From contig NZ_CP099966.1 of NCBI RefSeq assembly GCF_025403485.1, forward strand, positions 3,001,001 through 3,065,000: a stretch of DNA of 64,000 nucleotides, read 5' to 3'. This document shows, piece after piece, positions 4,789-59,490 of this stretch. Source of the DNA: Chryseobacterium paludis (GTDB taxonomy: Bacteria; Bacteroidota; Bacteroidia; Flavobacteriales; Weeksellaceae). The translations under genes and the position numbers were made by a program. Each line of letters begins with the position of its first letter. The first letter of the stretch is position 1. A model generated the notes under the pieces. It saw only the letters and a program-made list of their open reading frames with translations, did no database searches and was not told the origin of the DNA.

Positions 4789-7700
4789 ATGGAAACCCAA
4801 AAATATACTCCTAAAAACAAAGTAAGAATTGTAACAGCAGCGTCATTATTTGACGGACATGATGCCGCAATTAATATTATGCGTCGTGTTATTCAGGGAA
4901 CTGGTTGCGAAGTCATCCACCTTGGTCACGATAAATCAGCAGAGGAAGTTGTAAATACAGCTATCCAGGAAGATGCTAATGCTATCGCTTTAACCTCTTA
5001 TCAGGGAGGTCATAATGAATATTTTAAATATATCTATGATCTTTTAAGAGAAAAAAACTCTCCACAGATTAAGATCTTCGGTGGTGGTGGCGGTGTAATT
5101 CTGCCTGAAGAAATTGAAGACATCATGTCTTATGGAATCGACAGAATCTACTCTCCGGATGATGGAAGAGAGCTTGGACTTCAGGGAATGATTGATGATC
5201 TGGTGAACAGATCAGATTTTGCAACCGGAAAAGACATCACGGTTGAAGACTTAGAATCAATTAATTTCGAAAACTCAACAAGCATTGCTAAAATTATCTC
5301 TGCTGTTGAAAACTTTTCTGATGAAAAGCCAGAATTAGTAAAAGCTATTGATGAAAAAGCGAAAGATCTTAATATTCCTATTATTGGTATTACAGGTACT
5401 GGTGGTGCCGGGAAATCTTCATTGACCGATGAACTGGTAAGACGTTTCCTACGTTCCAATACAGATAAAAAAATAGCGATCATATCTATTGACCCTTCGA
5501 AAAAGAAAACCGGAGGGGCATTACTTGGGGATAGAATCCGTATGAATGCCATCAATGATCCTAGAGTTTATATGCGCTCAATGGCGACAAGAGAAAATAA
5601 CGTTTCAGTTTCTCCATTTATCCATTCAGCACTGAATGTATTAAAACTGGCACATCCTGATGTTATTATTCTGGAAACTTCAGGTATTGGGCAGTCAGGT
5701 TCCGAGGTATCTGATTTTGCTGATGTTTCAATGTATGTAATGACTCCTGAATATGGAGCATCAACACAGTTGGAAAAAATTGACATGTTAGATTATGCGG
5801 ATCTCGTAGCCTTAAACAAATCTGATAAACGAGGGGCACTTGATGCTTTACAGGCTGTAAGAAAACAGTTCCAAAGAAATCACCTGTTATGGGAAAGTCC
5901 ATTAGATGATATGCCGGTATATGCAACGAAGGCATCTCAGTTTAATGATCACGGAACAACAGAACTATACAACAGATTAATTTCTAAAGTTAATGACAAG
6001 TTTTCAGAACTAAAACTGAATGGGTTCGTTGAGCAGGAAATTACAGAAGAAGTAACGATCATTCCTCCAAAGAGGGTTCGCTATCTGTCTGAAATTGTTG
6101 AAAACAATAAACATTATGATGCAAATGTTATAAAGCAAGCTGAGCTGGCCAGAAAAATGTATCATATAGAAGGGGTTAAAAATATTCTTACTAATGAAAT
6201 TTTAGACACCGAATACCAAAAAGCTGAAAAAGACCTTCAACAGGAAAATATCGATTTTCTTAAAAACTGGGAAGACACTAAAAAAGCTTTCCATGAGGAA
6301 TTCTTTTCTTATTTCGTTCGTGGAAAGGAAATCAAAGTAGAAACCTCAACTGAATCTTTATCTCATCTAAAAATTCCTAAAATCGCTTTACCAAAATATA
6401 CGGATTGGGGAGATCTTATTTTATGGAAGGGACAGGAAAACCTTCCCGGAAGCTTTCCATATACAGCAGGAATTTATCCGTTTAAAAGAACTGGAGAAGA
6501 TCCTACAAGGATGTTTGCGGGAGAAGGAGGTCCTGAAAGAACAAATAGAAGATTCCATTACGTTTCTGCAGAAATGGATGCAAAACGTCTATCAACAGCT
6601 TTCGACTCTGTAACATTATATGGACAAGATCCGGCATTACCACCAGATATTTATGGTAAAATTGGAAATGCAGGGGTTTCGATTGCCACTTTAGATGATG
6701 CAAAGAAATTATATTCCGGTTTTGATTTAGTGAATGTTATGACCTCTGTTTCAATGACCATCAATGGGCCTGCTCCAATGCTGTTGGCATTTTTCATGAA
6801 TGCTGCTATTGATCAGAATGTTGAAAAATATATTGCCGAGCATAAACTTGAAGCGAAGGTTGAGGCTGTTTTAAAGGCAAAATTTGATGATAAAGGTTTA
6901 GAAAGACCAAAATATAATGGAGAACTTCCACCTTCTAATAATGGTTTAGGTTTAAAACTATTAGGAATCACAGGAGATGAAGTTATTCCGGCTGAAGCTT
7001 ATGCAGAAATCAAAGCTAAAACTATTGCTACAGTTCGTGGTACGGTTCAGGCTGATATTTTAAAAGAAGACCAGGCACAAAATACCTGTATTTTCTCTAC
7101 TGAATTCGCCTTAAGGTTAATGGGTGATGTTCAGGAATATTTTATCACAGAGAAAGTAAGAAACTTTTATTCAGTTTCTATTTCAGGATATCACATTGCT
7201 GAAGCTGGAGCTAATCCTGTTTCTCAATTGGCATTTACATTGGCTAATGGTTTTACGTATGTAGAATATTATTTAAGCCGTGGAATGGACATCAATGATT
7301 TTGCTCCTAACTTATCTTTCTTCTTCTCCAATGGTATCGACCCTGAATATTCAGTGATCGGACGAGTAGCAAGAAGAATCTGGGCAAAAGCTATGAAAAT
7401 AAAATATGGTGCTGATGAAAGAAGTCAGATGTTGAAATACCACATTCAGACTTCAGGACGTTCTCTTCACGCTCAGGAGATTGATTTCAACGATATCAGA
7501 ACTACGCTACAGGCATTGTATGCGATTTATGACAACTGTAATTCACTTCACACGAATGCTTATGACGAAGCTATTACAACTCCAACGGAGCAGTCTGTAA
7601 GAAGAGCGATGGCCATTCAGCTGATCATTAACAAAGAATTAGGTTTAGCTAAAAATGAAAACCCTCTTCAAGGTTCATTCATTATTGAGGAATTAACGGA

Positions 7701-8136
7701 TCTTGTTGAAGAAGCTGTTTATGCAGAATTTGACAGAATTACAGAAAGAGGTGGTGTTCTTGGTGCAATGGAAACCATGTATCAACGTTCAAAAATCCAG
7801 GAAGAATCTATGCATTACGAATGGCTGAAACATACAGGAGAATATCCTATTATTGGAGTTAATACTTTCCTTGGAAAAGATGGTTCGCCAACAGTACGTC
7901 CTGGAGAAGTTATCCGCTCTACTGAAGAAGAAAAGCAGGTTCAGATTGAAACCCTTCACAATTTCCAAAAATCTAATGAAGATAAATCTGAAGCAGCCTT
8001 AAAAACATTACAGTACGCAGCTATCAACCAACAAAACTTATTCCATGTCATGATGGATGCTGTGAAATACTGTTCTCTTGGGCAAATCACCAATGCTTTA
8101 TTTGAAGTGGGTGGTAAATACAGAAGAAATATGTAA
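4789..8136 (+). CDS. icmF: Fused isobutyryl-CoA mutase (IcmF type, B12-dependent)
   Basis: A 1115-residue three-part fusion. Residues 1-150 are the B12-binding domain (DGHD, His24 as lower axial ligand). Residues about 190-420 are the MeaB-like GTPase chaperone with Walker A GTGGAGKS at 203-210. Residues about 540-1115 are the mutase barrel. This is the IcmF order, not the two-chain methylmalonyl-CoA mutase. In the active site the residue in RMFAGEG (Phe576) stands where methylmalonyl-CoA mutase has Tyr, and Gln764 (in AQNTCIF) stands where that enzyme has Arg, which is the isobutyryl-CoA pattern. The expected reaction is isobutyryl-CoA to n-butyryl-CoA; related enzymes also act on isovaleryl/pivalyl-CoA. 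Start chosen at 4789 because the promoter box covers the upstream TTG. Stands alone, ended by a hairpin. Confidence 0.93.
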
Positions 8137-8167
8137 TCTCTGTTGAACAGACAATTATAAATTAAAT

Positions 8168-8193
8168 AAAGCCGCAGATTAATCTACGGCTTT
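8168..8193. terminator. Intrinsic terminator between icmF and the M16 gene
   Basis: AAAGCCG-AGAT arms with one mismatch pair across a 2-base loop (AAAGCCGCAGATT / AATCTACGGCTTT), followed by a T-rich run on the plus strand. It serves two convergent genes. Confidence 0.75.
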
Positions 8194-8217
8194 ACTTTTT
8201 TTAGTCTATTTAAAGAA

Positions 8218-10950
8218 TTATTTCTTATTAAAATCTCCAGCGAAAATAGAGATAATATTATTTTCAGAAAGATACTTTTTCAAAGCAGCATTTACTTCAG
8301 ATAATTTTAGATTCTGAATTTTTAAATTCTGTTCATCAAATCTTTCCAATGGAACACCAAAAAGAAGTTTTGTATTCTCAAGATTAATAAGAGTGCCATC
8401 TGATCCTAAACTTGTTGTTCTTTCATTGGCATAACTTTTCTTGTTAGAATCTAATTCTGCCTGTGTAAATCCAGAAGCAAGTGCCTTACTTACCTCTTCT
8501 TTTATAGCCGCTTCTACAGCATTTCTTTTCGTTGGGTTCAAATAGGCATAGTAATTCCACGAAGCTACATCATTCGAAACAGGAACACTGAGATAGGAAC
8601 CTACACCATAAGAAATCCCTTCTTTTTCCCGTAGCCTCATCGGTAATCTGGCAGAAAGGAATCCTCCACTTCCTAAAATTTCGTTAGCCATTACTAAAGC
8701 TGGATAATCTGTATGCTCCTGTGTCATTTTGAAACTTGAAGTTCCCAGGGCAACTGCATTTTCTTTGTCTGGGGTTATGATGTTTTTGTCCTGTTTTTTT
8801 GTTTCAAAGAATGTAGGTTTTACCTCAACAAATTTTGATTTGGCGGTAAACTTTCCAAATGTCTTTTCTAGTTCTGATGAAGCTAGCTTTGGATCAATAG
8901 CACCTATCAAAGTTCCAACACCATCTGATGCGCCCATCATATTCTGATAGAAATCTGTCACCTGAGCCTTGGTCACTTTTTTATTTTCATCAATTTGTTC
9001 CTGTAAGGAAGCAACATAAAAAATACTTGTCTTCGGATATGGAGACGCCAGTCTTTGTAGCTCATTACTTGCTATAGCCTGTGGATCTTTTAGCTGTCCT
9101 TCCAGCTGTGTATTGATTTCAGTGATGGTTTTACCAAGCTCATTTTCAGGGAAAGTTGAATTCGTCAATATATCCTGTACAATGGCCATTACCTTCGGAT
9201 AATATTGTTTATAAGTATTGATGCCAATAATTAAATTTTGTCCATAAACATAGGTATAAACAGATGATTTCATTTGATCCAAATCATCCTGTATCTGCTC
9301 TTTTGTTCTGGTTTTAGTTCCGGATTTCAATAAAGCAGCAGTAATGCCTGCAATAGCTTCTTTACCTTGAAGGTCTTTTTCATTTCCAATTCTGAAACGG
9401 AAATTCCCCTGAACTTTATCTCCCTTGAGCTCTTTGTTGATAAGTCCATATTTCATCCCATTGGAAAGCTTTCCTTCGGTAAGATTCTTTTTAACATTGG
9501 CAATTGAAGCTTCAAAAGGTGCAGGCTCTTTTTCTAAAGCTCTTCCTTTATAATCTTTTACCAGATCCGCAATCTGATTATCCCTAAATTCTGTTGGGAA
9601 AACTCTTTCTTCATTTGGAGAAGGGCGGAAAACACCCATTGTACGGTTATTATTTATAAAATACTTTTTAGCTACCTTATTGATATCTTCCAGTTTTAGG
9701 TTCTCAACATTATCCCGGTAAAGGAAGTTCAATTTGTAATTTCCGGCTCCGATAATTTCCGTAAGATTGATCGCAAAATTGATGGTGTTATTTTTCTGAT
9801 CTTCTATTTCTTTAACCAATTTTGATTTGGCTCTTTTAAGATCATCTTCCGTAAACTGGATCAATGAAATTCTATCTAATTCCGTTCTTACAAGTTTCGT
9901 GGTTTCATCAAGATTTTTATCTTTTGGAACATCAAAATTAAAATAGATCATTCCGGGATCTCTTAAGGAAGGCCTGAATGTCCAGATAGAAGAAACCTTC
10001 TTAGCTTCTACCAAATTCTTGTATAAATATCCTGAAGGATCGGAAGTCAGAATTTCACAAAGTGCTGATAAGGCTGCAAAATCTTTATCCGCATACGCTG
10101 ATGTATGATAACCTGCAGCTATGATTTGCTGATCATTATTTCTTTTTATCTCAAAGTATTTCTCTCCATTTTGAGCAGGCTCTACTGTATACGTTCCGCC
10201 CAGTTCACGAGTAGGCTTCTTGATAATAGAAAAATAATCTGAAATGTATTTTAATGCATTTTTCTCATCAAACTTTCCGGCAACAATAAGAGTTGCATTA
10301 TCCGGCTGATAATATTTTTCATAGAACTTTCGTAAAGTAGGCGCTTTTACACGTTCAATATCTTCCTTGCTTCCTATAGTGCTGTTTCCATAGTTATGCC
10401 AAACATATCCATTGGAAAATACATTCTGTATCATAACTCTTGTAGGATTATTCTCTCCAATTTCAAATTCATTTCTTACTACTGAAAATTCTTTATCCAA
10501 ATCAGTTTGTAAGATGGTAGCATTGATCATTCTATCCGCTTCCATTTGTAATGACCATTTCAGGTTTTCCTCACTGGAAGGGAAAATTTCGTAATAATTG
10601 GTCCTGTCATACCAAGTGGTCCCGTTGGCCTGGCCTCCTTTATCGGAAAGCTGCTTTTTAATATCTCCAAGGTTCTTGGTACTCTTGAACAACATATGCT
10701 CAAGTAAATGTGCCATCCCTTTTTCACCATAGCCCTCATCTTTCGATCCTACATTGTACACAATATTCACAACCATATTGCTTTGCGAAGGATCAGGAAT
10801 TAAAAGAATCTTCATTCCGTTATTAATGGTATATTCTTTAACTCCTTCCGTATTACCGATAAATTTCGGAGCATCAGCATTTTGAGAAAAAACAGGACTG
10901 ATACTTCCTGTAAAAAATAGGACTGCCGCCCCAAATACTAAGTTTTTCAT
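8218..10950 (-). CDS. M16-family zinc metallopeptidase, secreted
   Basis: A 910-residue protein with a signal peptide ending at the Ser-Gln of SPVFSQ (residues 1-23). The N-terminal half carries the inverted zinc motif HLLEH (His81, Glu84, His85) and the downstream Glu region of VVRNEFEIGEN, as expected for an active pitrilysin-type domain. The C-terminal half (from about 480) repeats the M16 fold, with RLREKEGISYGVGSYLSVP as the inactive-domain substrate-binding motif. So one chain holds both halves that some bacteria encode as a pair. It probably acts in the periplasm on peptides. It stands alone, convergent with icmF. Confidence 0.92.
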   Translation of the reverse strand: MKNLVFGAAVLFFTGSISPVFSQNADAPKFIGNTEGVKEYTINNGMKILLIPDPSQSNMVVNIVYNVGSKDEGYGEKGMAHLLEHMLFKSTKNLGDIKKQLSDKGGQANGTTWYDRTNYYEIFPSSEENLKWSLQMEADRMINATILQTDLDKEFSVVRNEFEIGENNPTRVMIQNVFSNGYVWHNYGNSTIGSKEDIERVKAPTLRKFYEKYYQPDNATLIVAGKFDEKNALKYISDYFSIIKKPTRELGGTYTVEPAQNGEKYFEIKRNNDQQIIAAGYHTSAYADKDFAALSALCEILTSDPSGYLYKNLVEAKKVSSIWTFRPSLRDPGMIYFNFDVPKDKNLDETTKLVRTELDRISLIQFTEDDLKRAKSKLVKEIEDQKNNTINFAINLTEIIGAGNYKLNFLYRDNVENLKLEDINKVAKKYFINNNRTMGVFRPSPNEERVFPTEFRDNQIADLVKDYKGRALEKEPAPFEASIANVKKNLTEGKLSNGMKYGLINKELKGDKVQGNFRFRIGNEKDLQGKEAIAGITAALLKSGTKTRTKEQIQDDLDQMKSSVYTYVYGQNLIIGINTYKQYYPKVMAIVQDILTNSTFPENELGKTITEINTQLEGQLKDPQAIASNELQRLASPYPKTSIFYVASLQEQIDENKKVTKAQVTDFYQNMMGASDGVGTLIGAIDPKLASSELEKTFGKFTAKSKFVEVKPTFFETKKQDKNIITPDKENAVALGTSSFKMTQEHTDYPALVMANEILGSGGFLSARLPMRLREKEGISYGVGSYLSVPVSNDVASWNYYAYLNPTKRNAVEAAIKEEVSKALASGFTQAELDSNKKSYANERTTSLGSDGTLINLENTKLLFGVPLERFDEQNLKIQNLKLSEVNAALKKYLSENNIISIFAGDFNKK

Positions 10951-11059
10951 CTAGTTTTTATTTAATTTCGTTTAAATTTAAAAAGTTTTCTGGTCACTAA
11001 TTATAAGACAACTATGCCTTACAAAATGTTACAGAGATCCATAAAAATATCACTATTTA

Positions 11060-11773
11060 ATGAAAAAACCAAAAGCCCTATTTAACTGGAGCAGTGGAAA
11101 AGATTCCGCACTTGCATTGTATAAAACTTTAAAAGAAAACAAGTTTGATATAGCTTATTTACTTACCAGCATCAATGAAGAATATCAGCGGATCTCTATG
11201 CATGGTGTTCATGTTTCTCTTTTAGAACAGCAAGCATCCAGCATCGGGTTTCCTTTAATTAAAATGGAAATTCCCAAAGAACCTTCTATGGAACAGTATC
11301 GGGATATTATGAATAAAACAATGTCTGAACTAAAGTCCCAAGGCATAACGTATTCCATTTTTGGAGATATCTTTCTGGAAGATTTAAGAAAATACCGTGA
11401 AGACCAACTTAAAGCTATTGATATGGAAGCAGTCTTCCCACTTTGGAAAAAAGATACCACGAACCTCATCCACGAATTTTTAGATCTGGGTTTTAAAACA
11501 ATTGTTACCTGTGTGAATGAAACCTATTTAGATAAAAGCTTTGCCGGAAGAATTATTGATGAACAGTTTATTGCCGACTTACCACAGAATGTTGATCCTT
11601 GTGGAGAAAATGGCGAATTTCATACGTTTACTTTTGATGGCCCATTATTCAAAAATCCTATTAAATTTGAGGTTGGAGAGATTGTGAAGAAAACGTATCC
11701 AAAGCCAAAAACTGATAATAATGAGAGTAACGGTGATTATGTTTTCTGGTTCTGTGACCTGATCTCAAAATAA
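11060..11773 (+). CDS. Dph6-like ATP-pyrophosphatase (diphthine-ammonia ligase family)
   Basis: A 237-residue N-type ATP pyrophosphatase. The PP-loop SSGKDS is at residues 11-16. GDIFLEDLRKYREDQ, FPLWKKDT and the later CVNETYLDKSFAGR and DPCGENGEFHTFTFDGP blocks are the signature of the MJ0570/Dph6-like family. In eukaryotes and archaea this enzyme amidates diphthine; bacteria lack diphthamide, so the substrate here is unknown and the family name is only homology. Single gene, divergent from the M16 peptidase. Confidence 0.85.
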   Translation: MKKPKALFNWSSGKDSALALYKTLKENKFDIAYLLTSINEEYQRISMHGVHVSLLEQQASSIGFPLIKMEIPKEPSMEQYRDIMNKTMSELKSQGITYSIFGDIFLEDLRKYREDQLKAIDMEAVFPLWKKDTTNLIHEFLDLGFKTIVTCVNETYLDKSFAGRIIDEQFIADLPQNVDPCGENGEFHTFTFDGPLFKNPIKFEVGEIVKKTYPKPKTDNNESNGDYVFWFCDLISK

Positions 11774-11774
11774 C

Positions 11775-11802
11775 CCCCGCTGTTTTTTGAAATTTTGCGG
11801 GG
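11775..11802. terminator. Possible terminator, GC stem with long loop
   Basis: CCCCGC pairs with GCGGGG over a 16-base A/T loop between two convergent genes. The T-run after the stem is poor, so efficiency is uncertain. Confidence 0.4.
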
Positions 11803-11814
11803 CTATTATATCTT

Positions 11815-13224
11815 TTATTTAAATGTTGTCATGATTTCATTCATTAGATCAAATACCAGCTTCACATCTTTTTCATTAGTTTTCCAATTAACAAATGCTG
11901 CTCTTATTCCTTTGTGCTGATTATAGAAAGTGGGAGTCATAAATACCTTTCCGGTATTATTAAGTCTTTCAAGAAATTCATTAACCTTATCCTGATCTGC
12001 ACTATCTTTCAAACTAAAACAAACCGTATTGAGTCTTACCGGAGCTAAAAGCTTAAAGTCAGTGCTGTTCTCAATTAGATTACCGAATTGTCGGGACAAA
12101 GACACATTGCTTTCAACAATTTCCTGATATCCATTTTTGCCATAAGCCATTATTGAAAACCATGCTGGTAAAGCTTTTAATCTTCTTGAATTCTCAGGTA
12201 AGAAATTTAAATAGCTGAAATTCTCCAGAGGATCACCCAGATAAGGGGCATTAGAATTCTGAAAAGTTTCAACCTGCAGTATTTTGTGTTGTTCTTTTAC
12301 GAAAAAAACAGCACTTTCATAAGGAACATTCAACCATTTATGACAGTCTATTGTAATACTGTCTGCGGCCTCCCAGCCTTCCACGAGATGTTTAGTTTCA
12401 TCGGAACAAGCTGCAAATCCTCCAAAAGCAGCATCTATATGCCACCAGAAGTTATACTTATTTTTAAGCTCTTTGATCGCTTTAAAATCATCAAAATCCA
12501 CTGTATTTACAGTTCCACCGCTTGAAATCAGGATAAAAGGTTCACCATGTAATTCTATAATCTTACTTTCCAGATCATCCATACACATCGCTTCCCGGTT
12601 CCCTTCCATTGTTTTAATTTTTACAACATTTCCACTTCCGATTCCCAAGAGAGATAACGATTTCAAACTTGAAGAATGTGGTGTGGCGGTAAGTATCTTG
12701 AAAGGTACCGAAATACCGTCTTTTGCAATATCCCTTCCATTTTCTTTCCCAATCCATTGTCTTGCTACTGCCAAACAGGTAAAATTGGACATCGTTGCGC
12801 CGGTTACGAAACCTCCTAAAAAGCTTTCCGGAAGCCCTAAGAGATCAAGTATCAATTTGATCGTCTCCATTTCTATGACCGCAGAAACATCCCCCTGCCC
12901 TTTCGTCGATTGGGTATTCTGATCATATACAGAAGCTAGCCAGTCTCCGGCAATAGAGGCAGGAGTAGCTCCCCCTGTAACAAATCCCCAATATCTGGGA
13001 CCTGATGATCCAACAATAACAGGTTCAAATCTTTCATTAAAAATTTCCAATACTTTTTCTGTTCCATATCCTGATTCAGGTACTGATTCTTCTTGAGATG
13101 AAATTTTATGATCAACAGATGTCTTTCTGTCGGATAAAGTTTTTAAATAAGATACTCCTTGTGTTTTTATTGTTTCTAATAAGTGATCAATTTCTGACCA
13201 ATCATCTTCCAGGAATGTTTTCAT
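11815..13224 (-). CDS. PLP-dependent group II decarboxylase-like enzyme
   Basis: A 469-residue fold-type I enzyme of the aromatic-amino-acid/glutamate decarboxylase superfamily. The aldehyde lysine is Lys296 in DCHKWLNVPY. The aspartate that binds the pyridine nitrogen is in WHIDAAFGG (Asp264), and SSGGTVNTVDFD and GFVTGATMSNFT are further cofactor-binding segments. The substrate cannot be told from sequence; aromatic amino acids or related amines are the usual guess. It has no signal peptide, so it is cytoplasmic. Single gene, no clear promoter box. Confidence 0.88.
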   Translation of the reverse strand: MKTFLEDDWSEIDHLLETIKTQGVSYLKTLSDRKTSVDHKISSQEESVPESGYGTEKVLEIFNERFEPVIVGSSGPRYWGFVTGGATPASIAGDWLASVYDQNTQSTKGQGDVSAVIEMETIKLILDLLGLPESFLGGFVTGATMSNFTCLAVARQWIGKENGRDIAKDGISVPFKILTATPHSSSLKSLSLLGIGSGNVVKIKTMEGNREAMCMDDLESKIIELHGEPFILISSGGTVNTVDFDDFKAIKELKNKYNFWWHIDAAFGGFAACSDETKHLVEGWEAADSITIDCHKWLNVPYESAVFFVKEQHKILQVETFQNSNAPYLGDPLENFSYLNFLPENSRRLKALPAWFSIMAYGKNGYQEIVESNVSLSRQFGNLIENSTDFKLLAPVRLNTVCFSLKDSADQDKVNEFLERLNNTGKVFMTPTFYNQHKGIRAAFVNWKTNEKDVKLVFDLMNEIMTTFK

Positions 13225-51526: not shown

Positions 51527-53872
51527 ATGAACAGAAAAGAATTTTTAGCAAAGTCAGGGCTTTTATTAGCAGGTCTTGGAACTTCAAGTGTTTTACATCC
51601 TTCAATTTTAAAAGCATTAGCTATTGAACCTGCTGCTTTATCTACATTTTATGATGCCGAACATGTCGTTATTTTGATGCAGGAAAATCGTTCATTTGAC
51701 CATGCTTTTGGTTCATTAAAGGGTGTAAGGGGATTTCTTGATAAAAAAGCTTTCGTAAAACAGGATGGACATTCTGTTTTCTTTCAGAAGGGTAATGATG
51801 GAAAATATGCTTCCCCTGCCCGTTTGGATCTAAGAAACACAAAATCTACATGGATGAGCTCACTACCACATTCGTGGTCGGATCAACAAAAGGCTTTTAA
51901 TAAAGGAAAATATGACCAATGGTTACAATCAAAAGCTTCAGGAAATAAAGATTATAAAAATATCCCACTTACTTTGGGATATTATAATCGTGAGGATCTC
52001 CCGTTTTATTATCAGTTGGCAGATGCGTTTACGATATTTGATCAATATTTCTGTTCTTCCCTTACGGGTACTACTCCGAACAGACTTTTTCATTGGTCGG
52101 GAACTCTTAGAGAGCAGCAAAATGGTAAAGTAAAAGCTAATGTCTATAATGAAAATATAGATTATGATAAAAACCATCAGGCAAGATGGAAAAGTTTTCC
52201 GGAAATATTAGAAGAACAAAATGTCTCATGGAAAATATATCAGAATGAAATCAGTCTGCCAAAAGGAATGTCCGGAGAACAGGAAGCATGGCTGAGTAAT
52301 TTTACAGATAATCCTATAGAATGGTTTTCAGCATTTAATGTAAAGTTTTCCGAAGGATATTATAAAAATATTCCAAATGTTATTAATTATCTGAAGCAGG
52401 AAATTGAAAAGAATCCCAGCCATAAAGAAAGATTAGAAGATCTGATCACAGAGCTTCAGGAAGATCTGGTTAAATATCATCCGGATAATTATTCAAAATT
52501 ATCTCAAAAAGAAAAAAACCTCCATGAAAAAGCATTTACAACCAATTCCGGAGATCCCAATTTTTGGAATTTAGAAATTGGAAATGATGAACATGGTGAA
52601 AGATTGGTAGTACCAAAAGGAGATGTACTATTTCAGTTCCGCAAAGATGTTGAGGAGAAAAAACTGCCACTGGTTTCATGGCTTGTAGCTCCAGAACATT
52701 TTTCCGATCATCCCGGATCACCATGGTATGGAGCGTGGTATATTTCAGAAGTTTTAAATATTCTTACCAAGGATCCTGAAACGTGGAAGAAAACCATTTT
52801 TATTATCAATTATGACGAAAATGATGGATATTTTGATCATGTTTTACCTTTTGCTCCACCATTAAATCCAAGTCAACCTGTCGATATGAATGGAAAAGAA
52901 GGGGTAGATTATGTCAACAAAAATCAAGACTACATGGCTGACCGTAAATTAAAAGACCATGAGCGTATTGAAGGAACAGTTGGTCTGGGTTATAGAGTTC
53001 CTATGATCATTGCATCTCCATGGACGAAAGGGGGATTTGTAAACTCAGAAGTTTCAGATCATACTTCTGTCTTACAGTTTCTGGAAAAATTTATTAATAA
53101 AAAATTAAATAAAAATGCCACAGTAGAAAACATTAGTGATTGGAGGCGGGCAATTTGTGGAGATTTAACTTCAGCTTTTAATTCTTCAAATATTAAAGCA
53201 CCACAGATGGATTATTTAAATCAAAAAGAATATGCAAAAACCATCAATGCGGCCAAAAACAAACCTGTTCCAAATTTGAAGTGGCATTCAGAAAATGAGC
53301 TAAACAGCAGTTTATTGGAAATTCAGGAAAGAGGAACAAGACCTTCCAATGCATTACCGTACAACTTTATTGTTAATCTAGATGGTGATCAAATTAAAAT
53401 GCAGAACTTGAGGGAAACCGGAATTCCTTTATTGATCTATGACAGATCAAAACTAGATAGTGAAAGCTATTACTTTTCATATGCTCTTTATTCAAAACAG
53501 GAATTATCACATTCTTTAAATCTGGATCACTATAATTACGAAGTTTTTGGTCCAAATGGTTTTTATAGAAATTTTAAAGGAGATCAACAACCTGGATTTG
53601 AAATACATTTATTAAATGATACGAGGAATAATGAAGTTCAGTTACTTTTCAAAAAACATATAAAAGAAAGTATTTCTGTTATAATAAATGATATGTACGA
53701 GAAGAATCAAAGAAAAATTACTTTAAACAAAGCTCAGGAAACGATCATCATAAATCTTAATAAAAATAAAGGCTGGTATGACTTGAAAATAACCGAAAAT
53801 GATCATATCTGGCAATTTTCGGGCAGAATAGAAACAGGAAAAACATCGATCTCTGATCCTCATTGGATGTAA
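51527..53872 (+). CDS. Phosphocholine-specific phospholipase C
   Basis: A 781-residue member of the bacterial phospholipase C/acid phosphatase superfamily. The signature QENRSFDHAFG is at residues 52-62. GTTPNRLFHWSG, APEHFSDHPGSPWYGAWY and NYDENDGYFDH are the other metal- and substrate-binding blocks. The C terminus has two small beta domains. The N terminus, NRKEFLAKSG, is Tat-like but has Arg-Lys instead of Arg-Arg. It cleaves phosphatidylcholine or sphingomyelin-type headgroups in characterised relatives. Ends at a strong terminator. Confidence 0.9.
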   Translation: MNRKEFLAKSGLLLAGLGTSSVLHPSILKALAIEPAALSTFYDAEHVVILMQENRSFDHAFGSLKGVRGFLDKKAFVKQDGHSVFFQKGNDGKYASPARLDLRNTKSTWMSSLPHSWSDQQKAFNKGKYDQWLQSKASGNKDYKNIPLTLGYYNREDLPFYYQLADAFTIFDQYFCSSLTGTTPNRLFHWSGTLREQQNGKVKANVYNENIDYDKNHQARWKSFPEILEEQNVSWKIYQNEISLPKGMSGEQEAWLSNFTDNPIEWFSAFNVKFSEGYYKNIPNVINYLKQEIEKNPSHKERLEDLITELQEDLVKYHPDNYSKLSQKEKNLHEKAFTTNSGDPNFWNLEIGNDEHGERLVVPKGDVLFQFRKDVEEKKLPLVSWLVAPEHFSDHPGSPWYGAWYISEVLNILTKDPETWKKTIFIINYDENDGYFDHVLPFAPPLNPSQPVDMNGKEGVDYVNKNQDYMADRKLKDHERIEGTVGLGYRVPMIIASPWTKGGFVNSEVSDHTSVLQFLEKFINKKLNKNATVENISDWRRAICGDLTSAFNSSNIKAPQMDYLNQKEYAKTINAAKNKPVPNLKWHSENELNSSLLEIQERGTRPSNALPYNFIVNLDGDQIKMQNLRETGIPLLIYDRSKLDSESYYFSYALYSKQELSHSLNLDHYNYEVFGPNGFYRNFKGDQQPGFEIHLLNDTRNNEVQLLFKKHIKESISVIINDMYEKNQRKITLNKAQETIIINLNKNKGWYDLKITENDHIWQFSGRIETGKTSISDPHWM

Positions 53873-53895: not shown

Positions 53896-53922
53896 AAGCC
53901 TTACCTTATTTGTGTAAGGCTT
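53896..53922 (+). terminator. Terminator after the phospholipase C gene
   Basis: AAGCCTTAC / GTAAGGCTT, a perfect 9-bp stem with a 9-base loop and a T-run. It closes the SusCD-PLC unit and isolates the next cluster. Confidence 0.85.
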
Positions 53923-54146: not shown

Positions 54147-54725
54147 ATGAAAAAATTTAAGTTTACATTATCACTTGCTTTAATTGCCCTTGCAATTTCG
54201 GCTAATTTAAGTGCACAAGACACTAACACTGACAATCACACCATCTCGGTTACGATTCCCGAAGTTGCGCTAGTAGATATTGAGCCTGCAGCTACAAAAA
54301 ACATTACTTTAGGTTTTACGGCTCCAACAGAAGCAGGGTTACCAATCATTCCGTCCACTTCAAATAATACACTTTGGTTAAACTATTCCTCAATTAAATC
54401 AGTTGCAGATGCTACCCGTAATGTTTCTGTAAAATTAAATGCCATAATTCCAGGAATAGACATCCATGTTACAGCTGCTGCTGCTGCTGGAGCAGGTGCC
54501 GGAACATTAGGGACACCATCAGCACAATTAACTTTGAGTGCAGCAGATCAAACAATTATTTCAGGCATTGGCAGTGCGTATACAGGAGATGGAGCTAACA
54601 ACGGACATAATCTCACCTATGCTTTAGCAGCCGGAAGTGGTCCTGGTGGAGTTGCAAATTATGCTGATCTTCAAGCAACAGCTACGGCTGTCGCTACAGT
54701 GACCTATACCATTTCGGATAATTAG
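54147..54725 (+). CDS. Gly/Ala-rich exported protein, candidate fibre subunit A
   Basis: A 192-residue protein with a clear signal peptide (residues 1-23, ending SANLSAQ). The mature protein is beta-rich with no Cys. It has TIPEVALVDIEPA near the start, an Ala/Gly block AAAAAGAGAGTLGTPSAQLT, then ISGIGSAYTGDGANNGHNL, and ends in the alternating strand VATVTYTISDN. The same blocks occur in the 175-residue protein of this cluster, so the two are paralogs. Size, signal, beta content and C-terminal hydrophobic strand are like chaperone-usher pilins, but no family match is recognised. First gene of the cluster; no clear promoter box. Confidence 0.6.
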   Translation: MKKFKFTLSLALIALAISANLSAQDTNTDNHTISVTIPEVALVDIEPAATKNITLGFTAPTEAGLPIIPSTSNNTLWLNYSSIKSVADATRNVSVKLNAIIPGIDIHVTAAAAAGAGAGTLGTPSAQLTLSAADQTIISGIGSAYTGDGANNGHNLTYALAAGSGPGGVANYADLQATATAVATVTYTISDN

Positions 54726-54824
54726 AAGCTAAAAATCTTATATAATTTTAGTAAGAAGAGATCATACAGATTATTTCTTCTTACTATTTTGTTGCCGTGT
54801 TTTAATCTCAAACTTTACATAATT

Positions 54825-55625
54825 ATGATAAAGCGTATTTTCATTTTTACATATCTTCTTTTACCACTTGTATTTTTACACGCGAGTATTGTAATTCTTA
54901 ATGGTCTTACTCATAACTATAAAGTAGAAAACGGGCAGGTTTATAAAGGAAAAATTGCAATAGAAAATACAGATAATAAACCTCAGAGCATAAAAATATT
55001 CTTACAGGATTTTACCTATCAGGCAAATGGAACTATAAGTTATACTGCACCCCATACGAATGAGAAGACCAATTCGGATTGGATCAAACTTAATACGAAT
55101 TACCTTAGTCTAAAAGCCAAAGAAAAAACAGAGGTATATTATGAGATTACTGTACCTGACCAAATTTCCGAGGCTGGCAGCTACTGGAGTGTCATCATCG
55201 TAGAACCAGTAGATGATATAAAACCAAGTAATAATAGTGCAGGAGTCAATATAACGTCTATTGTTCGGTATGCCATTCAGGTGATTACCGATTATGATTC
55301 TGAGAAGTTAAGACCTGACCTTAAATTCGAAACAGTGAAAATTGACAAGGAAGAAGGTAAACAATTATTAAAAATTGCAATTGCTAATAAAGGGAAAATT
55401 TATTGCAAACCAACAGCATCTATTGAGATATATAATAGAAAAAATGGACAAAAAATAGGCAATTTTTCAAGCCAGGCGATGGGATTATTACCAAGCACAT
55501 CGAAATCCTTTTACATTGATATCAGTAAAGTTCCACCTGATAAATATAATGCCGTCGTCATCGCAACAGATGAAGACGAAAATGCTTTCGCCCTCAATGT
55601 GGAACTAGAAGTAAAAAATGATTAA
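54825..55625 (+). CDS. PapD-like periplasmic chaperone candidate
   Basis: A 266-residue protein; the start at 54825 gives a signal peptide (residues 1-20). Two Ig-like halves: about 21-156 and 162-264. The first has KGKIAIENTDNKPQSIKIFL, like strand B-C of PapD or DUF916 domains, WIKLNTNYLSLKAKEKTEVYY and EAGSYWSVIIVEP, and then VNITSIVRYAIQVI, resembling the G1 strand that donates to pilin subunits. Its stop overlaps the next ATG by 8 bases. The assignment as chaperone is by domain layout and position, not by a firm family match. Confidence 0.55.
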   Translation: MIKRIFIFTYLLLPLVFLHASIVILNGLTHNYKVENGQVYKGKIAIENTDNKPQSIKIFLQDFTYQANGTISYTAPHTNEKTNSDWIKLNTNYLSLKAKEKTEVYYEITVPDQISEAGSYWSVIIVEPVDDIKPSNNSAGVNITSIVRYAIQVITDYDSEKLRPDLKFETVKIDKEEGKQLLKIAIANKGKIYCKPTASIEIYNRKNGQKIGNFSSQAMGLLPSTSKSFYIDISKVPPDKYNAVVIATDEDENAFALNVELEVKND

Positions 55626-58374
55626 AATTTGGGCTTTATATCTCTTCATACTCCTCCCAGTACTTACTTTTTCTCAAAAACAACCTAAAGAATTTGTCAG
55701 CAAAAAAGATAGTCTACTTCCGGGAACGGCTACTTCTGTTTCGTTTACTTTAGAAAATAAAACTTTAATAAACAAGACTTATGATATTCGTATTGAAACT
55801 TCCAATCCATATATCAGACCTATTTTAAATAGAAATGAATTGACAATCCCTGCGGAAGAAAATACGGTGTACATTGTTCCTTTAAGAATTGCAACTGAAA
55901 CTCCAAAAGGAGTATATAATGTAAGATTATATGGAACAGAAAAAAGTGATGGTGAACAATTCATCAAAACACTGGAAATAGAAGTTGTTGGAAATAGAAA
56001 ACTTTCCCTTACCGCAATAAATTCTCCAGAGTTTGTAAAAGCAGGTGAAACCATTACCTCTTCTTTTTTATTAAAAAATAGTGGAAATGTAGCCGAGAAG
56101 CTCATACTGGAAAGTAAAAATGCTGTTGTGGATCATGAAGCTTCCTTACTTTTACCACCCGGTGAAACTAAAATAATTAACATCGCTAAAAATACAAATC
56201 CTGATTTGGGAAAAAATGAATATCAAAATCTCAATCTTTCTGTATATTCAATAGACAATCCCAAGGAAAATCAAACCGCTTATAGCAGTACCAAAATTAT
56301 TTCTGTTAAACCTACTGAAGACGATATATATCACCGGTTACCTGTTTCAGCTTCTTTAGCTTTTATAGGAATGAAGAACAGAGGGATTTATCATGATGGT
56401 TTTCAAGGAGAATTATATGGTAAAGGTACCCTAGATAAAGAAAATAAAGGAATACTAGAATTCCATGCAGTATCTTCGAATCCTGTTGAATTTAACTCTT
56501 TTACCCAATATGAAGAATATTTTATTAATTACAGGCGTGATAATCTCTTTGCTCATTTGGGAGATAAAACTTATTCTTCATCTTATCTTACAGAGTTTGC
56601 CAGATATGGCCGTGGTGTAGAATTACAGTATAATTTCAAAAAAATAAGTATTGGTGGCTTTTATAACCATCCAAGATTTTTCCGTGATATTAAAGATGAA
56701 TTTAATGTTTATTCAAAATTTAAAATCAATAAAGAATCAGAAATTACAGCAGGATATTTATATAAAATACCAAGAACCGGAGACGTCAAATTAAGTTTAA
56801 ATGATGTCAGATTAGATTCTAATGCTCATCTTCCTTATGTAACAGGGAAATTCAAACTTGATAAGCATCTGGATGTATCCGGAGAACTGGCCTACAGCAA
56901 AACAGATAATACAGACGGTACTGCTTACATGGTACAGGTTTTGGCTAGCTATGAAAAGTTTAACGGAAATATCATGTATATGAGAGCGAGTCCTCAATTT
57001 TCCGGATATTTCACAAATACAAGTACTTTCAACGGGAATTTGCAGTATAAGGTATCAAGAAGGCTCAGTGTATTTGGAAACTATGTACAGGATGCAAGAA
57101 ATTTTCAAAGAGATACTCTATTTTTAGCCGCGCCTTACAGGAAATTCTTTCAGTATGGTATCAACTACAAATACATGAAGACTGGTACTATAATGCTTTA
57201 TAATGGATATCAAAGATATCAGGATCGTTTGGAACCAAGGCAATTTGATTATTATGAGAGATTTTTCAGGGTAAGCATCGACCAACAAATTGGTATTTTT
57301 CAGGTAAACCTTCAGGGGCAATTCGGAAAAACAGAAAATTATCTTAGTGAATTTAGCGGAAATTCCAGTTTTTATACTTTTAATTTAGGTTTTGAAAAAT
57401 TTAAAACTTCCTTTAATGTATTTGGAAGCTATGCTGTAACTTCTCGTTATCAGCTACAAAATCAAGATCAATTTTATTATGGTGCCCGTATTATCAGCCG
57501 GTTTTCTTCAAAAACTGATCTTAGCATTTTTTACCAGAACAATTATATTCCAGAAGAATATTTTACCGATCGAAATCTTTTTGAAGTTCTTTTTCATCAA
57601 CGGATCTTTCCCGGACATGAATTAGATGCCTCTGGACGGTACGCTTTACAACGGGGAGAGCTAGGAAACAAAGATTTTATATTCTCAGTTCGCTATACTT
57701 GGCGTCTGAATGTTCCAGTTCAAAAAACAGCTGAATACACTACTTTATCAGGAAACATAGGTAATCTTGGTGTAAAAAAAACAGAGGGCATAAGACTTAT
57801 GATGGGGAACTATCTTTCTATGACTGATAAAAATGGCAATTATATATTTAAAAATGTAACCCCAGGAGATTACATAATAGAAATAGATCGATCAACAACA
57901 GGGATAAACGACATTGCTGATATTAGTATTCCTGCATCGGTATTGCTGACCAATAAGGAGAATATTTTTAACTTCGGATTGACGACTGCCGCAAACATTC
58001 AGGGACATATTGAATTGACAGAAAATCAGGAAAGCAATCAATTCAGTTTTGCTCATTTTCAACCTAAAAAGGAAAAAAAGAAGCGGGAAAGCATTATAAT
58101 AGAAGCATCAAATGGAGAACAGACTTATCGTAAAATAGGATTTATAGGTGAGAATTTCGATTTTACTTATTTACGACCGGGAGACTGGACTGTAAAGATA
58201 TATCGTAATGGATTGGATAGACGTTTCAAAATTTCAATGGACACTTTTCGTTTTGCCTTAAAAGCTTCTGAAACTAAAAAGTTAACCATTAATGTTATGA
58301 AACAACAAACTGAAGTAAAATATCAGCAGGAAAGTATTAAAGTAGGCTATAATGAAATAAAAAAACAAAAATGA
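55618..58374 (+). CDS. Usher-like outer-membrane barrel protein
   Basis: A 918-residue exported protein. Signal peptide 1-20; two Ig-like (NEW3-type) domains at about 25-125 and 130-232; a long alternating-strand region at about 240-705 that reads as a beta-barrel; then a domain from 708 with SGNIGNLGVKKTEG, SMTDKNGNYIFKNVTPGDY and, from about 785, FGLTTAANIQGHIEL, which resembles the C-terminal domains of chaperone-usher ushers or SdrD/CnaB-like folds. A last beta domain (FDFTYLRPGDWTVKIY) follows. It has no visible plug inserted within the barrel, unlike classical ushers. It is coupled to both neighbours by overlaps. Confidence 0.55.
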   Translation: MIKIWALYLFILLPVLTFSQKQPKEFVSKKDSLLPGTATSVSFTLENKTLINKTYDIRIETSNPYIRPILNRNELTIPAEENTVYIVPLRIATETPKGVYNVRLYGTEKSDGEQFIKTLEIEVVGNRKLSLTAINSPEFVKAGETITSSFLLKNSGNVAEKLILESKNAVVDHEASLLLPPGETKIINIAKNTNPDLGKNEYQNLNLSVYSIDNPKENQTAYSSTKIISVKPTEDDIYHRLPVSASLAFIGMKNRGIYHDGFQGELYGKGTLDKENKGILEFHAVSSNPVEFNSFTQYEEYFINYRRDNLFAHLGDKTYSSSYLTEFARYGRGVELQYNFKKISIGGFYNHPRFFRDIKDEFNVYSKFKINKESEITAGYLYKIPRTGDVKLSLNDVRLDSNAHLPYVTGKFKLDKHLDVSGELAYSKTDNTDGTAYMVQVLASYEKFNGNIMYMRASPQFSGYFTNTSTFNGNLQYKVSRRLSVFGNYVQDARNFQRDTLFLAAPYRKFFQYGINYKYMKTGTIMLYNGYQRYQDRLEPRQFDYYERFFRVSIDQQIGIFQVNLQGQFGKTENYLSEFSGNSSFYTFNLGFEKFKTSFNVFGSYAVTSRYQLQNQDQFYYGARIISRFSSKTDLSIFYQNNYIPEEYFTDRNLFEVLFHQRIFPGHELDASGRYALQRGELGNKDFIFSVRYTWRLNVPVQKTAEYTTLSGNIGNLGVKKTEGIRLMMGNYLSMTDKNGNYIFKNVTPGDYIIEIDRSTTGINDIADISIPASVLLTNKENIFNFGLTTAANIQGHIELTENQESNQFSFAHFQPKKEKKKRESIIIEASNGEQTYRKIGFIGENFDFTYLRPGDWTVKIYRNGLDRRFKISMDTFRFALKASETKKLTINVMKQQTEVKYQQESIKVGYNEIKKQK

Positions 58375-58898
58375 GATCAGTTGTTCCCCACATATTATCT
58401 ATAATTTTCTGTATACTATCCGGTAAACTGTTTTCACAAATTAATGTTGCGACTACATTACCCATTGTCACTTTATTGGATATAGAACCTACAGGCAATA
58501 TTGTTTTAAGCTTCGTTGCTCCCACCCAGGCAGGATTATCTATAGTAAATCCTGCGGTCAATACAACCAAATGGATTAATTATACTTCTGCGATAGCATC
58601 AGGAGGCGCTACAAGAAGAGTTACTGCGTCAGTTAATCAGGTCATTCCTGGTATCAACATCAGATTACAGGCTGCTGCAGCTTCAGGTGCAGGCGGTGGC
58701 ACTTTGGGAACTCCTTCGGCTCAGGTTACACTTACAACGACACCGATTACTATAATCAGTGGAATTGGTGGAGCATTTACAGGAAATGGAGCTAATAATG
58801 GTCATAGGCTTACCATTACCTTAGTGACTAATACATATGCCAACCTATCAGCTCGTACCAATACACCAGTCGTTATCACCTATACGATCACCGAATAA
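58371..58898 (+). CDS. Gly/Ala-rich exported protein, candidate fibre subunit B
   Basis: A 175-residue paralog of the 192-residue subunit A. Signal peptide about 1-24. Conserved blocks: LLDIEPTGNIVLSF, INYTSAI, AAAASGAGGGTLGTPSAQ, IISGIGGAFTGNGANNGHRL, and the end strand VVITYTITE. Its start overlaps the usher-like stop (ATGA), so translation is coupled. Paralogs on both sides of the chaperone/usher genes suggest a major and a minor subunit. Confidence 0.6.
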   Translation: MRSVVPHILSIIFCILSGKLFSQINVATTLPIVTLLDIEPTGNIVLSFVAPTQAGLSIVNPAVNTTKWINYTSAIASGGATRRVTASVNQVIPGINIRLQAAAASGAGGGTLGTPSAQVTLTTTPITIISGIGGAFTGNGANNGHRLTITLVTNTYANLSARTNTPVVITYTITE

Positions 58899-58899
58899 A

Positions 58900-59436
58900 A
58901 TGAATGAAATGAAATATAATAATGATTTTTTGAAAAAAAAGATTTCTTTTATAAATAATATATCTATTTTCTTCTTGATACTGGCAGGTGGCTTTTGTAA
59001 AGGACAATCATTAACTGTAGGAGGAAGTAACTGGACAGTAAGTATTCCATCTATAACCGAAGCAGGAAGCAATTATGCAGGTAGTTATGAAAGTGCAGCC
59101 AATCAAATTCTATTGGCAGCAAGTGTTCCTTTGCTGCTGGGCAGTGCAAAGGTATCTGTACATTACATAGCAAATCCAACATGGAACAGTTCCTTAGGGC
59201 TAAATATTAAAAGAACAGGAAATGGCACCACCGTTTGTTTATTATGTACTATAACTGGAGGAATTACTTATCAGGCTCTAACAATTACTGATGTAGAATT
59301 ATTTAGAATTGCAGCAGTACTAGCACTCGCATCTTATAGTAATATTCCTATACAATTACAGCTAACAGGTGTATCAGTAACAGTACCTGCGGCGGCTTAT
59401 GGCAGTAGGGTGGTTTTTACTATAGGTTCTCTTTAA
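58900..59436 (+). CDS. Third small exported protein of the usher-like cluster
   Basis: The start at 58900 gives a 178-residue protein; the longer frame from 58837 lies within the previous gene and is rejected. It has a signal (INNISIFFLILAGGFCKGQ) and a beta-rich mature part of about 140 residues ending VVFTIGSL. It is not clearly similar to subunits A and B; a Cys pair (CLLC) is notable. It may be a tip or anchor component. Ends at a terminator. Confidence 0.55.
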   Translation: MNEMKYNNDFLKKKISFINNISIFFLILAGGFCKGQSLTVGGSNWTVSIPSITEAGSNYAGSYESAANQILLAASVPLLLGSAKVSVHYIANPTWNSSLGLNIKRTGNGTTVCLLCTITGGITYQALTITDVELFRIAAVLALASYSNIPIQLQLTGVSVTVPAAAYGSRVVFTIGSL

Positions 59437-59445
59437 TCTTAAAAT

Positions 59446-59475
59446 GAAAACCTCAATCTTATCGAATGAGGTTTT
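59446..59475. terminator. Terminator closing the usher-like cluster
   Basis: AAAACCTCA pairs with TGAGGTTTT over an 11-base loop, with T-runs in both directions. It separates the cluster from the convergent SusD-like gene. Confidence 0.8.
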
Positions 59476-59490
59476 GCATATTTTATATTT

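Follow-up and report, generated by a model that had tools for sequence, protein, structure and literature searches.

A five-gene cluster of Chryseobacterium paludis that probably encodes a variant chaperone-usher-type assembly system

The window analysed here is a stretch of 64,000 nucleotides (nt) from Chryseobacterium paludis (G000:C1:3001001-3065000), whose genome is a single contig of 5.05 Mb. Five neighbouring genes on the forward strand of the window make up a compact cluster that very probably encodes a variant chaperone-usher-type system. The open reading frame (ORF) calls place subunit A, the probable major pilin of 192 amino acids (aa), at 54147-54725. It is followed by a putative periplasmic chaperone with two immunoglobulin (Ig) domains (54825-55625; 266 aa from ATG), a WxLIP homologue without a membrane helix according to Pfam and a PDB profile match. 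The gene for a usher-like outer-membrane barrel protein of 918 aa (55618-58374) was assigned with an AlphaFold model and VIA-align. Subunit B (58371-58898; 175 aa), which has a pilin fold in its predicted structure, and subunit C (58900-59436; 178 aa from ATG) complete the cluster. An original prediction, made from the letters of the window, had claimed five adjoining same-strand genes in the order A-chaperone-barrel-B-C with two overlaps, and the ORF calls confirm this. The overlap is 8 nt between the chaperone and barrel genes and 4 nt between the barrel and B genes, and C begins 1 nt past the stop of B. The N-termini of all five proteins appear by eye to be like signal peptides.

Judged by its sequence, the chaperone of the window is a two-Ig-domain periplasmic protein of the WxLIP family. 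Both domains of that family were matched above the curated Pfam cut-offs, PF06030 (DUF916) at 2.4e-7 and PF11797 (DUF3324) at 6.3e-8. A profile built from five relatives found E. faecium WxLIP1 (EfmWxLIP1) at E 5.4e-12, aligned over profile positions 41-264 of 265. This was the only PDB match of the profile (two sequences with E no higher than 10), and it extends across both domains. Gram-positive WxLIP proteins have a C-terminal transmembrane helix and are clustered with WxL proteins. The 266-aa protein ends with ALNVELEVKND directly past its second domain and has no such helix, which fits a soluble periplasmic chaperone. In Chryseobacterium sp. CH25, the chaperone frame is shortened to 152 aa from ATG (L080 5550-6008).

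The small exported proteins were described at the outset as two paralogues and a third, and this holds. A and B share 49% identity, and C is much more remote, with 16% identity to A. Among the five proteins, conservation is highest for A in 73 of 78 named loci and lowest for C, the fastest evolving, in 72 of 78. Subunit B has an incomplete-Ig pilin fold in its predicted structure (model m950ff10992e8, pLDDT 91.6). When this model was compared with the PDB through VIA-align, a second-look ranking of Foldseek's own matches, 44 of the 50 matches listed were chaperone-usher pilins, with modest Z values of 5.4-7.5. The closest pilins among those listed were CFA/I, CS17, and CooA. Four of the six listed matches outside the chaperone-usher group were other filaments: TLP-1b, two cannulae, and Sulfolobus 0406. 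A profile of A and B had no PDB match under E 0.07. DUF4402 was considered as the subunit family and rejected, having no match among the subunits and a single weak one elsewhere in the genome (E 0.07).

A short N-terminal segment with alternating hydrophobic residues is present in A, B, and C and is a candidate donor strand. In a scan where position 0 and the Pro belong to the search anchor, residues -4 and -2 were hydrophobic in all 77 of 77 A sequences, in 99% of the 77 B sequences that could be anchored (78 given), and in 89% of the 66 anchored C sequences (76 given). The B of the window has Thr at -2. B and C are fused in one frame in C. taiwanense (L114 8754-9791, 345 aa) and C. tagetis (L115 8754-9800, 348 aa), and the N-terminal segment of C is retained in both fusions. 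This is compatible with the N-terminus of C filling the groove of B in cis.

The AlphaFold model of the 918-aa protein (m16aeae22654d; pLDDT 82.6, pTM 0.58) contains an Ig pair at residues 36-228, a barrel at 243-696, and two sandwiches at 708-801 and 825-895. A total of 26 longer strands were counted in the barrel region. The longest gap between strands is about 17 residues, and the model therefore has no plug-sized insert. The model resembles MtrB first and PapC second in VIA-align. N-terminal Ig domains, a barrel, and C-terminal domains had been predicted, and the model contains these, but the profile searches gave no sequence link to ushers. Profile links of the protein family to ushers reached 11%, and at most 7.5% to a FimD set, and none was counted. 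EcpC aligned collinearly and weakly, at 13%. A distant usher-sized protein (L212) matched CooC_C, the C-terminus of the CS1 usher, at 1.3e-5; this match is below the cut-off and weaker than CarboxypepD_reg on the same residues, and it was not used as support. When a distant usher alignment was used as the query, one protein was found at E up to 1e-10 among the best 8000 candidates, so the usher model is built on 101 sequences, almost all of which come from the Chryseobacterium group. The protein of the window is 99% identical to its counterpart in Chryseobacterium sp. ISL-6. An ordinary TonB receptor was also considered. There were many weak matches of this kind, all to the C-terminal region and leaving the Ig domains and barrel uncovered, and they were taken as domain matches and not as relatives. 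The one inspected (L034) is a TonB receptor that also carries a carboxypeptidase-like domain.

The cluster is well conserved. The scan of named genomes covered the best 80 of 113 loci, from Chryseobacterium, two Elizabethkingia, and one Weeksellaceae bin. The order A-chaperone-usher-B-C was kept in 79 of these 80, which places the cluster beyond chance. The exception is L120, where A falls outside a contig of 4.7 kb. The chaperone and usher genes overlap in 78 of the 80. Among 35 same-genus relatives, the barrel gene was found in 33, one as a contig-edge fragment. A search for this gene order in relatives, as had been suggested, also found it in another family (G038, L035), with all five genes and usher identity of 23-25%. 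The order was found as well in a genome of another order (G323, L046), with usher identity of 50%. In G058 (L036), the contig begins just 5' of the chaperone.

Wider scans can indicate how often the chaperone and usher occur together. In the class, 68 of 396 genomes were positive for the usher. Seven of these, the genome of the window among them, had a full-length match, and in the remaining 61 the match was partial, in most cases to the C-terminal domain. In a scan of 148 genomes of the family, the chaperone was matched in 52 (E up to 1e-3), the usher in 41 (E up to 1e-10), and both in 40. A chaperone lay within 4.5 kb of 63 of the 68 usher match rows, in which some genes are counted as two pieces; 21 were adjacent, 35 were at a gap of 0.9-1.6 kb, and 7 were placed otherwise. 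There were 17 chaperones with no usher match nearby. Three of these loci were inspected (L168, L169, and L170), and in each of them that place is taken by an ORF of 818-892 aa, measured from ATG with true starts possibly further upstream.

Several sister loci follow a similar plan. Type II loci (L033, L169, and L216) contain an AraC-type regulator (identified by Pfam in L033 and by eye in L169 and L216), two small subunits, a chaperone, an exported protein of 342-376 aa, and a usher-sized gene. L033 (G000:C1:2027000-2046000, cluster at 5812-12719) is a second, divergent chaperone-usher-like cluster in the window's own genome, with the exported protein of 342 aa between the chaperone and the usher-like gene. 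Type III loci (L168, L170, and L215) possess one to four subunits, a chaperone, a usher-sized gene, and an exported protein of 475-478 aa with a subunit-like end. Three or four similar subunit genes stand in tandem in L168 (1308-9157) and L215 (1834-9486). The exported protein of 477-478 aa after the usher-sized gene of these two loci has a position like that of a two-domain tip adhesin. The same plan is seen in types IV and V, represented by L171, in which the chaperone lies on the opposite strand, and L172. Elsewhere in the phylum, L210 has three subunits, a chaperone, and a usher-sized gene, and L212 has the same with four subunits. L211 has five subunits and a chaperone, and its next gene is cut at the contig end. 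L211 and L212 appear by eye to adjoin NtrC-like regulators. A profile of the type II-V chaperones, run on 296 genomes of the phylum, had matches in 46, at least four of which (G078, G085, G167, and G219) are short matches in giant frames. Two small genomes elsewhere in the phylum have a chaperone-like two-Ig gene (L209 6085-6966 and L213 5777-6637) with no barrel-sized gene in line beside it, so this context is not common to every member of the chaperone family.

The sister loci also supply a link to PapD. Six type II-V chaperones without signal peptides were compared with five from E. coli K-12 (FimC, SfmC, YadV, ElfD, and YcbF). The profile alignment covers 195 columns in both domains and had 89.4% probability (E 2e-6). 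Among 150 column shuffles the highest value was 1.2%, and reversing the profile gave 0.2%. When these six chaperones were taken from within a larger alignment, the probability was 78.5%, and 60 shuffles of the pooled comparison gave at most 4.2%. A chaperone of one type III relative had a weak match to PapD_N (0.024, below threshold). The type II-V alignment sets SPTRLFF opposite GATRVIY and IITLFEVGLHIFYTP opposite LQLAIISRIKLYYRP, which are the PapD positions for the anchor Arg and the donor strand. The PapD anchor pair is R8/K112. Two type II chaperones have Arg and Lys at these places: L033, from the window's own genome (PPRLYF and RSGIKLF), and L169, from elsewhere (PPRSYF and RSGIKLY). 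From these alignments, the sister-locus chaperones appear to resemble the PapD type remotely.

A chaperone-usher pathway requires exactly a subunit, a PapD-like chaperone, and a usher. The composition of the cluster, its gene order, the homology of its chaperone, and the pilin fold of B all suggest that it works in the manner of such a pathway. Described systems of this type (FimA-FimC-FimD, the alternative CS1/CFA-I, and the archaic Csu) likewise combine a subunit, a two-Ig chaperone, and an outer-membrane barrel, and the operon layout matches that of fim. The original chaperone-usher proposal is therefore supported by the WxLIP chaperone, the B fold, the barrel model, and the kept order. The cluster would assemble a fibre. 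A, B, and C would reach the periplasm by Sec signal peptides, and the soluble WxLIP-like chaperone may then cap their incomplete Ig folds by lending a strand. The barrel protein could receive chaperone-subunit complexes at its N-terminal Ig pair. The subunits would polymerise by donor-strand exchange through the alternating N-terminal segment and pass through the pore. A would be the major subunit, with the minor subunits B and C at one of the fibre's ends.

A number of results weigh against this assignment. The PapD-family profiles PF00345 and PF02753 had no match in the 266-aa protein at E up to 1. The Usher profile PF00577, searched against the whole genome at E up to 10, matched nothing, while the E. 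coli control was positive. A classical usher has a 24-strand barrel with a plug domain, an N-terminal domain, and two C-terminal domains. The model lacks that 24-strand, plugged architecture: its barrel has approximately 26 strands without an insert the size of a plug, and two Ig domains stand at the N-terminus. The window's chaperone belongs to type I, a group that does not possess the Arg/Lys pair and has NGLTH and VRYAIQV at these places in the alignments. Compared alone with the PapD type, type I gave 0.1%, and 15 pooled chaperones gave 0.4%, which is no link in either case. These two values were obtained after removal of the signal peptides, to which an initial score of 92.8% had partly been due; only the types II-V result held. 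Yet the alignment of type I with types II-V scores 99.4%, and thus the bridge to PapD runs via the sister loci, on small alignments. By its profiles and its barrel, the system falls outside the described chaperone-usher clades, and a variant of this kind is very probable. It was not recognised as a described system, and the literature search gave no description of one in Bacteroidota among the matches listed.

Type V (FimA/Mfa) pili are surface fibres of Bacteroidota that are assembled by donor strands from lipoprotein precursors, and they are not known to use a chaperone or usher. A donor-strand surface fibre is likewise proposed here. However, a genome search for FimA-type fimbrillin (PF06321) at E up to 0.1 found none, with a positive Bacteroides control, which agrees with the earlier statement that the cluster is unlike type V pili.

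The nearest family of the chaperone by sequence raises the possibility that a dedicated barrel exports a WxL-like surface coat. In that case the two-Ig protein would remain attached to the subunits on the cell surface as a scaffold, and no polymer would form. One WxLIP-type protein with several small exported partners is found in WxL clusters as well as here, and a passage of PMC10599100 proposes that WxLIP holds WxL proteins on peptidoglycan. A coat is nevertheless unlikely. The chaperone has no C-terminal membrane helix, and a WxL domain was matched neither in the three subunits of the window (E up to 1) nor in a set of 94 A/B sequences (E up to 0.1). The match of B to polymerising pilins also speaks against a coat, as do the kept gene order and the large barrel protein that occurs alongside. 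Unlike in WxL clusters, the host is diderm and the operon includes an outer-membrane barrel protein.

The first-ranked match of the barrel, MtrB, is a sheath for a decahaem cytochrome. The cluster could accordingly be a conduit for uptake or electron transfer, with the Ig protein and the small beta proteins as accessories. This is very improbable: no decahaem cytochrome or other redox partner was recognised among the five genes, and such a conduit has no evident place for the paralogues A and B, the latter with a pilin fold, or for a third exported protein. Loci also differ in how many subunit genes precede the chaperone (five in L211, four in L168 and L212), as expected of fibre subunits. TLP-1b, cannulae, and Sulfolobus 0406-type filaments assemble by donor strands, and their presence among the listed matches of B would suit a self-polymerising, archaea-like filament in which the Ig protein and the barrel serve only for export of the subunits. 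The large majority of chaperone-usher pilins among those same matches and the closeness of chaperone to usher in the family scan leave this with little probability as well.

Other features were found around and within the variant chaperone-usher cluster. RNA folding gave a forward-strand hairpin, absent from the original prediction, between A and the chaperone gene (54749-54786; z -2.4), and 3 of 200 shuffles folded equally well. In a scan with a permissive criterion and no shuffle control on the set, 76 of 77 loci had a stem of at least 7 pairs in this gap, mostly of 8-14 pairs, and GAAGA was present in the 5' arm of 54. Changes between species were seen by eye on both arms. The hairpin is possibly an attenuator, through which A would be made in excess as the major subunit. 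The cluster had been described as bounded by terminators. Folded forward-strand hairpins do lie on both borders, one with a U-run 3' of a phospholipase-like gene (53896-53922; z -3.8) and one 3' of C (59444-59479; z -5.2), but a simple terminator scan lists neither. The upstream gene (51527-53872), read by eye, appears to encode a secreted phospholipase C-like enzyme. In L047, a phospholipase C-like gene and an opposite-strand SusD-like gene likewise border the cluster.

It is conceivable, at somewhat less than even chances, that the WxLIP and PapD chaperones are one family. The intermediates would then be found in Bacteroidota, in a distinct chaperone-usher clade whose particular 26-strand usher was recruited or rebuilt independently of PapC/FimD, and Gram-positive WxLIP would be a donor-strand chaperone for WxL subunits. 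No literature linking bacterial WxL to PapD was found among the matches listed. A Bacteroidota clade missed by standard profiles would be a second pilus route alongside the type V fimbriae for which the phylum is known. Many Chryseobacterium proteins now named 'hypothetical' or 'COG1470' would gain a role, and WxLIP, for which a role in Gram-positive bacteria has been proposed, would gain a testable function. With two systems in one genome, chaperones with and without the Arg/Lys pair can be compared directly.
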